Shown here: positions 12,433 through 60,938 of the stretch, piece after piece
Layout: the number at the start of each line of letters is the position of its first letter
Position numbering within the stretch: position 1 is the first letter of the stretch
Source: Planctomycetota bacterium
Lineage (GTDB): Bacteria; Planctomycetota; Phycisphaerae; Phycisphaerales; SM1A02
DNA: 64,000 nt
Reading direction: 5' to 3'
NCBI GenBank assembly: GCA_003671075.1
Contig: QWPT01000003.1
Location: 1-64,000, forward strand
Translations under genes and position numbers: made by a program
The notes under the pieces: model-generated
The model's input: the letters and a program-made list of their open reading frames with translations, nothing else
What the model was told of the DNA's origin: nothing
Databases searched by the model: none

Positions 12433-14631
12433 CTACTTCCGCTCCGCGTCGGAACGGTTTTCCTGCTTGACCGCTTCGGCCTTCGCCTTGGCAGCTTCGG
12501 CCTGCGCCTTTCGGAACGCGTCGATGCCGGCTGGCTCAGGAACAAGATTGGCGAACACCAATCCAGAACTCGCCAACCGACTGCTCTTGAACTCCAACTC
12601 AAGCGCGGGGCGCACCTGGTCATAGACCAATGCGCGCACTTCGTCAGGCGCCTTGCGGAAGATGATCAGGCGATCAAGCAGCGGCTGCGAAGTATCGAGC
12701 AGAATCTTGGTGAACACCGCGGGAATCGACTGGTCGAGTTCGCCGATCAGGTCCTTCATGCGGCCCTCGCCGAACTTGTTCACGAAGTCGTTGTACCGCG
12801 CCTCGCGGAAATACCGAGTGAGGCCACGCGCGTACTCGAGCGCCTCCTTCAGCACCTGCTCATTGTCCAGCAGCAAGCCTTCGCGGAAACCGCGCTCGAG
12901 CACTGAGTAGACATCGCTGCGCGCAACTTCGGGCTGCATTTCAAACTCGCCGTAGGTCACGCTTCGCACGAACTCGTCGATAGGGACGTGGTAGGTGGTG
13001 TTCTCGTTAAACGAGCCGCGGCCGTAGAGCCGATCGAGCTTGTCAAGAATCGCCTGCCCGCCCGCGACATCACCGGTGCGATACAGCTCGCGCACCGCCT
13101 GTTTCATGAAGTTCTCGTGGAAGTTCGTGAAGGTGTCGCCACCAGCGCCGCGCACGTCGTAGTGCTTCTTGTAGAGCACCTCGAAGTACTCGTCGATCAC
13201 CTTGATCCAACGCGCGTCGTTGAGGCGCGTGACATTGTCGCCGCTGAACGGGTCGTACTGCACCAACCCCGAACGGGCGAGAGCCTGCATGGCCTGGATC
13301 TCGACGCGATCGTTGTTGATGACCTTGTAGATGTCTTTGTCGTCGGTAATGCGATGCTCGCCGTATTCGGAGCCGCGGCGCGCCCAATAGAGCGCGTGGG
13401 CTGCGGGGTGGCGCCAGTCGAGCGGACCAGTGGCGGCTGTGTACTTGGACATCAGCGCCGGATCCATGTTGTAAGCGTCTACGAGCACGCGCTTGCGAAG
13501 GAACGCCATGAGGGCGCCACCGGCACGGGCGCGCGCGGGATCGCCGAAGGTCGAATCGAAGATACCAACGAGAGTCGCGGCCTCTTCACTCATGGCGCGC
13601 AGGCCAAGAAAGCGCGCGTAGGGCGAACTCTGCCGCGACGCCCATTCGCCAACGAGCAACAGAAAACGCTTGTCGGCGGCGAAGGCGTAGCGCGGCGGAA
13701 GCGGCGCCAACTTCGTCTCCAACTCGCTGACGAAATCCTTCGCCTCCGGGACTTTGGCGTAGAGGCCGTCGAGGGTGTCGGGTGCGTCGGCGATCGCCTT
13801 GATCCACGCCTTGCGCTGCTCGTAATCCTGCGGCGGAATACCGAGGAGATACTGCCATTCGCGGGCAAACTGCCGCTTGTAGGTGAGGTGCGCATCGTCG
13901 GCCACGCCGTCGATCTTGTGAGAGAACCAAAAGGCGAGCTCCTTGCACAGCAACAGACTGTTCGGGTTGTAGCGAACGCCCTTGTCGCGCACGAGCGAGA
14001 TACCTGCGTTCACCCACGCCCAACGCTCTTCGGGCGTGTTGGTCATGACCGAGATGTTGTAGGCCATGTTGTGTCCATGGAATGACCACACCTCGGGAAA
14101 TCGCGGCTGCAGCGCGGTGATGAGATTGGCGTCGGACATCACCTCGTAGAGAAGGCCCTTCTCTTTCTGCAAGGTGACCTTGATCCACAGGTAATCGACG
14201 AGAAGACCGCGCAACGCACCGAGCGCAGTGCCCAGCACCACCATTGGTGGCGCGCCGTCTTCGGCTTCGTCGGTGTAGCGCAGGCCAAATCCGCCTTGAC
14301 CACGCACAACGGCCTCGATCGACTCCTGACCCTTCGCGGTCTCGAAGCCAACGGCAACATCGTCGCCGACCTTGCCAGTCCAGGTACGAATGTCGCCGAG
14401 GTACTTGAACGAGAGATCCTGGCCCGAAAGCACTGATTTCTTCGTCTCAATCGAGCGGATGCGCGAGAGCGAAACTCGGCGCTGTGCTTCGGGACGGCTC
14501 TCGCCCGCGACGCCGAGCGCCAGATACTGCTCGCTCGCCATCTCCGTCAGGCGCGGCTGCAGCAAACCCGCCGCGGTGAACGCAAGAATTCCGATGAGGA
14601 CGGAGAGGATCAGGATGGCGCGATCGCGCAT
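12433..14631 (-). CDS. Conserved hypothetical protein with N-terminal TM, linked to ABC transporter genes
   Basis: 732 aa from MRDRAILILSVLIGILAFTAAGLL; helical-repeat-like body; directly follows the ABC permease gene. Confidence 0.8.
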   Translation of the reverse strand: MRDRAILILSVLIGILAFTAAGLLQPRLTEMASEQYLALGVAGESRPEAQRRVSLSRIRSIETKKSVLSGQDLSFKYLGDIRTWTGKVGDDVAVGFETAKGQESIEAVVRGQGGFGLRYTDEAEDGAPPMVVLGTALGALRGLLVDYLWIKVTLQKEKGLLYEVMSDANLITALQPRFPEVWSFHGHNMAYNISVMTNTPEERWAWVNAGISLVRDKGVRYNPNSLLLCKELAFWFSHKIDGVADDAHLTYKRQFAREWQYLLGIPPQDYEQRKAWIKAIADAPDTLDGLYAKVPEAKDFVSELETKLAPLPPRYAFAADKRFLLLVGEWASRQSSPYARFLGLRAMSEEAATLVGIFDSTFGDPARARAGGALMAFLRKRVLVDAYNMDPALMSKYTAATGPLDWRHPAAHALYWARRGSEYGEHRITDDKDIYKVINNDRVEIQAMQALARSGLVQYDPFSGDNVTRLNDARWIKVIDEYFEVLYKKHYDVRGAGGDTFTNFHENFMKQAVRELYRTGDVAGGQAILDKLDRLYGRGSFNENTTYHVPIDEFVRSVTYGEFEMQPEVARSDVYSVLERGFREGLLLDNEQVLKEALEYARGLTRYFREARYNDFVNKFGEGRMKDLIGELDQSIPAVFTKILLDTSQPLLDRLIIFRKAPDEVRALVYDQVRPALELEFKSSRLASSGLVFANLVPEPAGIDAFRKAQAEAAKAKAEAVKQENRSDAERK

Positions 14632-27829: not shown

Positions 27830-27900
27830 GACCTCGTCCGCAGACCTCGTCCGCAGACCTCGTCCGATCAGGCCTTCGGATCAGGCCTTCCGATCAAGCC
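27830..27900. repeat. Two adjoining 13-bp arrays (gacctcgtccgca x3; caggccttcggat x2.5)
   Basis: Read directly; the stop codon of the minus-strand frame (27894-27896) lies inside the array. Confidence 0.9.
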
Positions 27901-29292
27901 TTGTCCACTTTGGGGCTGCCGAGCGTGGTCGCCGCATGGCGCACCAACTCAAGCGCCTGCGCGCGGGTCGTTACTCGGCCTTCGATCTGCGCATCCATCG
28001 CAAGGTCAAGCAAGACCTTGAATCGCGGACCTGGGCGCATTCCCTCTGCGACAAGCGCGTTTCCGTCCACCAGTGGCTCCGGGAGCGCCCGCTCGGGCAG
28101 CGTGGCGTCGGCCTGCGACTTCCAGCGGGCGGCATCGGCGGGGAGTTCGGCGTGCAGGATCTCCAGAGCGGTGTCGAAACCGGGACCGGCCATCAGGCGC
28201 ACGCGAGCGGCGGGCTCGAGCGCATCGAACCCCGCCAGCAGCGCCTCGCGGGCGTCGAGCGCGTGAGCGACCCCATCGGCGTCATGGTTGGAAAGCGTCA
28301 GCCGCCGGCGCAACTCCCCCACCATCAGCGCGCGCTCGGCGGAGGTTGGTTGCGGCAGCGTGCGGTCGGGGCGGTCGGGGCGGTCGAGGCCGTCGAGGCC
28401 GTCGAGGCCGTCGCGGCACCATCAGCGCGCGCTCGGCGGAGGTTGGTTGCGGCAGCGTGCGGTCGGGGCGGTCGGGGCGGTCGAGGCCGTCGCGGCGGCC
28501 GGGGCGGTCGAGGCGGTCGAGGCGGTCGAGAAGCCAAGCCGCAAGAACCGTGGTCCACGCCGTCGTGTTCGCGAGAGCGTTCACGCGCGCGAGCGGTCCT
28601 GCCGACGAGCCTCCGCCGAAGATCGCTGCGTCGAGCGCGTGCTCCTCGATCAGCGTTGCGGCTCGATGACGCGCAGGATGCTGGAGCATCTTGCGCACCT
28701 CTTCGCCGACACGCTCGGGACTCACCGAAAGCAATTCGTTGGAGTGCGCGCGCACCGCGGCGCTGGTCGCTGGCTCGATGGCAAAGTTGAAGCGCGCGGC
28801 AAACCGCAGCGCGCGCAACATGCGCAGTCGGTCTTCGGCGATGCGCGCGTGCGGATCGCCGATGGCGCGGATCAGTTTCGCTGCGATGTCCGCTCGGCCC
28901 AAAACATGATCGACTGGCTCGCCGGTCTTGGGTTCGGCGAAGATCCCGTTGATGGTGAAATCGCGGCGTTGCGCGTCCTCCACCTCATCCGAAAAAGTCA
29001 CCGTGGTCGGGCGCCTTCCGTCTTGGTACTGACCGTCCTTGCGAAAGGTCGCCACCTCGAAAGTATGGCCGTGGTGGCGCACGAGCATCACGCCAAACGC
29101 CTCGCCCACTCCGCGGGCCTTCGGGAAGATTTGCTTAATTTCCTCGGGCTTTGCGCTGGTTGCAATATCAAAGTCGACGACATCCTCGATGCCCATCAAC
29201 TCGTCGCGCACGCAACCGCCCGCGAAGAGCGTGCGGTGACCCGCGTCGATGAGCCGTTGCGCGAGCGCACGCGCCGCCTCACGCGCCGACAT
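27894..29292 (-). pseudogene. cca: CCA tRNA nucleotidyltransferase/poly(A) polymerase family gene, split by a 97-bp frameshifting duplication
   Basis: N-terminal frame 28282..29292: LFAGGCVRDELMG...DFDIATSA...RRDFTINGIF...EDRLRMLRALRFAARF; C-terminal frame 27894..28325. A 97-bp repeat offset (28321 vs 28418) separates the frames. Confidence 0.75.
28321..28530. repeat. Direct duplication (97-bp offset) plus 9-bp repeats (cggtcgggg/ccgtcgagg)
   Basis: accatcagcgcgcgctcggcggaggttggttgcggcagcgtgcggtcgggg occurs at 28321 and 28418. Confidence 0.95.
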
Positions 29293-59853: not shown

Positions 59854-60938
59854 CCCCGGATCGCGTGCGCGCGCTGCTCGACCGTGCGGTGCGCATTGCC
59901 GCACGCGGACACGGCGGCGTCGAGCCAAATCCGATGGTCGGCTGCGTGATCGCCCACGACGACGCAACGCCGATCGCCGAGGGATTTCATCGCGTTTGCG
60001 GCGGACCACACGCTGAAGTCGACGCCTTGCGCGCTGCTGGTGCGCGCGCGCGCGGGGCCACCGCGATCGTGACTCTTGAGCCCTGCGCGCACCGAGGTCG
60101 GACCGGTCCGTGCGCCGATGCGCTGATCGAAGCGGGAATCGCACGCGTGTACTACGCGGTTGCGGATCCCAACCCAATTGCCGGCGGCGGCGCGCGAAAG
60201 CTCATCGACGCAGGGGTTCCAGCTGAGCTCATATTCCACGCGGGCGCGGACGAACTCGCGCGGCCGTTCATCAAGCGGATCACAACGAAACTCCCGTGGG
60301 TGAGTGCGAAGTGGGCGCAGTCGATCGACGGCGCCATCGCGCTTTCCAACGGAGATAGTAAGTGGATGTCGTGTGCGCGCAGTCGGGCAATGGTCCATCG
60401 CGAGCGCGGCCGCGTCGATGCGGTGCTGACTGGCATCGGCACCGTGGTCGAGGATGATCCGCAACTCACTCCGCGCGGCGTTCGGGTGCAGCGCCTGCCG
60501 CGACGAATCGTGTTTGACCCCGATGTCATGACGCCGGTCGAAGCGAAAATCCTCGAAGGCGACGCGCCAGCAACGCTGTTGGTGAGCAATGCGCTCGACG
60601 CTGCGGCGCAGCGACGCATGGCGCTGCTGCGCGGGCGTGGCGCGACATTTCTGCCGCTGGGCCCGAGGGATTCGCTGAAGGACGCGTTGGCTGCGCTCGC
60701 CGAGTCGGGCGTCGCAACCATCCTCGTCGAAGCTGGCGGCGGCTTGGTAGGACGACTTCTGCGCGAAGGATTGTTGGATGAAGCCTGGGTCTTCGTCGCG
60801 CCGCTGCTCGTTGGCGATGCGTCGGCCCAACGCGGAGCTCGCGGCATCGACCGCGATGTTCTCGCAGCGATTCCTCGCGCGCGTCTGCTGAGCGTTCGAC
60901 GCCGTGGCGCCGACGCGCTGCTCCACTATCGATTCTGA
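59850..60938 (+). CDS. ribD: Bifunctional riboflavin deaminase/reductase
   Basis: GGVEPNPMVGCVIAHDD...GGPHAEVDAL...TLEPCAHRGRTGPCADALIEAGI...WAQSIDGAIAL; GTG start. Confidence 0.95.
   Translation: MTPDRVRALLDRAVRIAARGHGGVEPNPMVGCVIAHDDATPIAEGFHRVCGGPHAEVDALRAAGARARGATAIVTLEPCAHRGRTGPCADALIEAGIARVYYAVADPNPIAGGGARKLIDAGVPAELIFHAGADELARPFIKRITTKLPWVSAKWAQSIDGAIALSNGDSKWMSCARSRAMVHRERGRVDAVLTGIGTVVEDDPQLTPRGVRVQRLPRRIVFDPDVMTPVEAKILEGDAPATLLVSNALDAAAQRRMALLRGRGATFLPLGPRDSLKDALAALAESGVATILVEAGGGLVGRLLREGLLDEAWVFVAPLLVGDASAQRGARGIDRDVLAAIPRARLLSVRRRGADALLHYRF

Follow-up and report, generated by a model that had tools for sequence, protein, structure and literature searches.

Assembly is the probable origin of a split CCA-adding enzyme gene in a Planctomycetota genome

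Is the gene for the CCA-adding enzyme of this Planctomycetota bacterium broken in the living cell, or only in its assembled genome? Within the window, that is, the whole stretch of 64,000 nucleotides analyzed here, the gene (cca) is encoded on the minus strand in two frames, N-terminal and C-terminal, whose ORF coordinates place them one base out of register. A sequence-only reading of the locus had proposed four ways of accounting for this: an assembly artefact, a recent lesion compensated by a second copy elsewhere, a functional truncated enzyme, or a locus that tolerates the frameshift. Judged from the sequence and the properties of the assembly, the split probably reflects overlapping contig ends or strain variants that were left unmerged, and no real lesion.

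Anatomy of the split gene

The N-terminal part of cca (28282..29292, minus strand) runs from an ATG at 29292 to an out-of-frame TGA stop at 28284-28282. In profile searches, it contains the PolyA_pol head (PF01743; 106.5 bits, cut-off 23) and the neck, or RNA-binding, domain (PF12627; 39.2 bits, cut-off 22), followed by a linker and, past the junction, by an out-of-frame tail of PRR/PRP repeats. The C-terminal part (27894..28421, minus strand) is open from 28421 to its stop at 27894-27896, has a possible internal ATG at 28325, and matches the corresponding region of the enzyme in relatives with 32-70% identity. Our reading of the sequence reproduced both frames with their coordinates, and the offset of one base, as originally claimed; both halves are otherwise open and display no further decay. 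The best NCBIfam match is to the CCA family, with a score of 217 bits that lies below the cut-off of 290, as does the 218 bits of an intact relative, and the match to PcnB is weaker (170 bits, cut-off 306).

Separating the two halves is a tandem repeat of two copies (28320-28416, 28417-28513) with a spacing of 97 bp, 94% identity over 97 bp, and a TRF score of 348, which is far beyond chance, with shuffled sequence yielding ~1.5 arrays per 100 kb. The 97-bp repeat initially described is thus present, and its structure can be refined to a 79-bp duplication plus 18 bp, or two 9-bp units, in one of the copies. On the minus strand, the copy adjoining the N-terminal half (28417..28513) includes the exact 79-bp unit (28417-28495), and the copy adjoining the C-terminal half (28320..28416) consists of 97 bp, namely, the 79-bp unit and the two extra 9-bp units. 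Both 79 and 97 equal 1 mod 3, and the frame is shifted by one base with either length. Underlying the repeat is a 9-bp minisatellite of the GCGGTCGGG type (28362..28528), which is interrupted by the duplicated unit. This array is frame-neutral, encoding LDR/PDR repeats in the reading frame, and appears to have grown from the LDR codons of a conserved 'AAWxxDR' motif. When aligned in the coding orientation, the two copies differ by whole 9-bp units. The junction between them (28416/28417) is devoid of Ns, and the 24-mer spanning it has a single genomic occurrence, where expected.

Requirement for the enzyme

A search of the 3.35-Mb genome, which is 97.6% complete, identified one PF01743 gene and likewise a single copy of the cca C-terminal part, which speaks against the suggestion of a second copy elsewhere; plasmid records contained only distant relatives, below 60% identity. 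The only tRNA gene of the window, tRNA-Ser (64-151), does not encode CCA, as had been noticed at the outset, and this pattern extends genome-wide, with CCA encoded in none of the 44 tRNA genes that were identified with the Rfam tRNA model and inspected at their 3' ends. Two tRNA candidates were rejected along the way: a tRNA-Asn predicted by ARAGORN in the window (14300-14390, minus strand) that has no match to the Rfam tRNA model and is probably false, and a tRNA-Gln that seemingly ends in CCA, in which TCC follows the discriminator base once the acceptor stem is correctly paired.

Both halves of cca share one frame in all 29 relatives examined, whose kinship ranges from genus to order level. 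The linker that follows the 'AAWxxDR' motif varies in length among the relatives, and one of them (G008) has an in-frame tandem duplication at the corresponding site in the linker. When the cca duplication was used as a DNA query, only minisatellite look-alikes were found in the genus, and none at the cca loci listed for the relatives; a search for another assembly of the same species returned none, the best relatives being ~60-70% identical. Given the single PolyA_pol-type gene, the lack of encoded CCA in 44 of 44 tRNAs, and the intact frame in 29 of 29 relatives, a real inactivation should be lethal, and a truly dead cca gene is hard to accept.

Assembly properties and other duplications in the genome

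We scanned 1.89 Mb of the genome for assembly properties and duplications, with the count of unmerged overlaps covering the first 1.56 Mb (45 gaps). In three contig pairs, the ends overlap by exactly 127 bp, the mark of a de Bruijn assembly with k=127, and the presence of 54 N-runs in 1.89 Mb indicates that the contigs are scaffolds. Within the first 1.56 Mb, the sequence on either side of four short N-runs (N6-N10), mostly located in minisatellites, is an exact, unmerged overlap of 22-31 bp reaching up to the gap; at these four gaps, overlapping ends were left joined without being merged. Short tandem repeats are abundant, both in the window and in the 1.89 Mb, with 25-39 arrays per 100 kb and period 12 being the commonest. 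This density compares with 9-14 arrays per 100 kb in the sampled relatives (one 15-kb contig excepted) and amounts to ~2-4 times the value in most sampled relatives and ~20 times the value in shuffled sequence. Several of the N-gaps in the assembly fall inside short tandem repeat arrays. A dispersed motif, CATGCCTGTCCCCGA, is possibly a mobile repeat unit: it is present in 22 copies in the 1.89 Mb (for instance, L251:8390-8539 and L253:17520-17575) and in none in the window, and its core, CCTGTCCCCGA, has a single occurrence in 380 kb from relatives.

Among tandem duplications of 50-130 bp, four in the same 1.89 Mb are two-copy and sharp-edged, with lengths of 97 (cca), 70, 61, and 129 bp. The 70-bp duplication (L185:17674-17811; G000:C1, at ~77.7 kb, with the locus starting at 60001) splits a gene for an RND efflux periplasmic adaptor, the pieces of which match RND adaptor families, and the 61-bp duplication (C38:968-1089, equivalent to L280:968-1089) splits a small gene that neighbors a lipoprotein-like paralogue. 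Both lengths are 1 mod 3. The 129-bp duplication (C21:456-710) is in frame. Thus, the frame is broken in three of the four cases (97, 70, and 61 bp), close to the neutral ratio of 2:1, with no sign of selection on coding. Microhomology at the junction amounts to 0-1 bp in the 97-, 70-, and 61-bp cases, and stray bases separate the copies in the 70-bp (two bases) and 129-bp (three bases) cases. The 70-bp copies have two differences, both synonymous, and the 61-bp copies also have two, one of which is synonymous and the other an Ala/Ser replacement. The broader proposition that all long duplications in this genome are artefacts was dropped because the in-frame repeats of 57, 102, 117, and 126 bp, in which similarity fades at the edges, look like genuine, old protein repeats. 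A codon-usage test of the frames around all arrays proved too noisy, mis-assigning the cca locus itself, and therefore, only duplications inspected by eye were used.

Origin of the split

Among the options first put forward, the assembly artefact is the best supported, by the properties of the assembly and by the two other genes that are split alike, and from these we infer that the cca junction itself probably arose in this way. The assembly seems to be a short-read, scaffolded metagenome, in which the minisatellite, probably with strain variants two 9-bp units apart, would end contigs on both sides; if two such overlapping ends were joined unmerged, the same 79-97 bp would appear twice in a row. 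The gene in the organism itself is most likely ordinary and intact, encoding a class II CCA-adding enzyme whose variable linker contains the 9-bp minisatellite. A fresh lesion is expected to leave identical copies and an old one to be followed by decay; the differences between the copies look like those between alleles of a working gene rather than post-lesion decay. Together, the 0-1 bp of microhomology and these allele-like differences favor overlapping ends that were never merged and that probably came from coexisting strains, although the small numbers (four SNPs and three or four junctions) make the inference only moderate. Several points count against an artefact. The cca junction lacks the Ns that mark gaps elsewhere, the class is confined to three or four cases, and a junction that is held by no read does not emerge from a pure de Bruijn assembler. 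Furthermore, real duplications are to be expected in a genome so rich in short tandem repeats.

Second after the assembly artefact, we rank a duplication that is real yet transient or carried by a minority, one that is recent and present in some cells only, such that the assembler took this allele while most cells keep a working gene. The density of real minisatellites in the genome, the change of the 9-bp array by 18 bp between the copies, and the uninterrupted junction are all compatible with this scenario, and direct repeats lying side by side are easily lost again. Nevertheless, we consider it unlikely, if worth keeping in view: the microhomology at the junction is minimal, the minority allele would have had to win in the assembly, and the copies are not identical, unlike those of a recent duplication. 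Readings in which the duplication is real and fixed appear far less probable. In one of these, low-level full-length enzyme, with ~32 extra linker residues, would be produced by +1 ribosomal slippage at CCC-C. By arithmetic alone, two hypothetical CCC-CGA sites (28369..28380, minus strand; CCC at 28380 and 28371) would restore the frame, a +1 slip at either giving a single open frame that reaches the C-terminal stop; the predicted product, likewise calculated, would have 465 residues from the ATG at 29292 or 474 codons from 29319. CCC-C has been described as the classical +1-prone motif, with tRNA-Pro(UGG) as the shift-prone isoacceptor (PMC4519876). The only proline anticodons found in this genome are CGG and UGG, in a tRNA list that may be incomplete, and changes in linker length are tolerated across the genus. 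However, CCC is a common proline codon here (27%), so that CCC-C cannot slip much, and two unrelated genes being split alike calls for a general cause, not one specific to cca. Beyond the frame-restoring sites, nothing else points to programmed slippage. We therefore regard slippage across a fixed duplication as improbable, and what is left of the proposed frameshift tolerance is weakly possible, through the two +1-prone CCC-C sites. It is a shade less probable again that a free-living bacterium would carry its only, presumably essential cca in split form and obtain the full enzyme by +1 slippage at a CCC-C supplied by a minisatellite.

Alternatively, the halves might be made as separate, cooperating polypeptides, or the N-terminal half might work alone. 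The N-terminal half has a complete head and neck, including the catalytic part, and translation of the C-terminal one could begin at the ATG at 28325. Yet a Shine-Dalgarno-like sequence is not evident by eye upstream of 28325, the truncated protein bears a foreign basic tail, and the C-terminal part is in frame in every one of the 29 relatives, which also disfavors the functional truncated enzyme envisaged in the sequence-only reading; either arrangement is very improbable. Least credible of all is that cca is truly dead and that another enzyme adds CCA. The frame is indeed broken as assembled, but the genome, at its level of completeness, yielded neither a second PF01743 protein nor another C-terminal part, and we know of no other bacterial route of CCA addition.

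Accordingly, the split cca should not be counted as biology before the reads are checked. If the preferred reading, an assembly artefact, is correct, genes of repeat-rich organisms, even those whose loss would be striking, can be falsely split in scaffolded short-read genomes with no Ns to betray it, and three such cases lie in the 1.89 Mb. If instead the duplication is real, cca would offer a naturally occurring and rare instance of frameshift tolerance, in which an enzyme that is both essential and single-copy is kept functional despite the broken frame.

Comparison with known systems

In vertebrate genomes, false (heterotype) duplications arise when an assembly presents the diverged alleles of a single locus as separate copies (PMC9516828). 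The cca copies resemble such false duplications in several respects: they are adjacent and near-identical, carry allele-like differences, and lie in a scaffolded assembly. Unlike the vertebrate cases, the copies here measure 61-97 bp, belong to a haploid population, are not separated by Ns, and are known from the assembly rather than from read depth.

The enzyme itself is best compared with the class II bacterial CCA tRNA nucleotidyltransferase (PDB 1miv; PRK13299, NF009814), with which it has the PF01743 head and the PF12627 neck in common. In class II enzymes, the C-terminal body and tail are continuous with the N-terminal part, whereas the assembled cca has its C-terminal part in another frame and a linker that contains the 9-bp repeat array. 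For the intact enzyme of a close relative, the alignment with 1miv covers residues 10-234 (E 3e-44), and that with NF009814 spans nearly the whole length.
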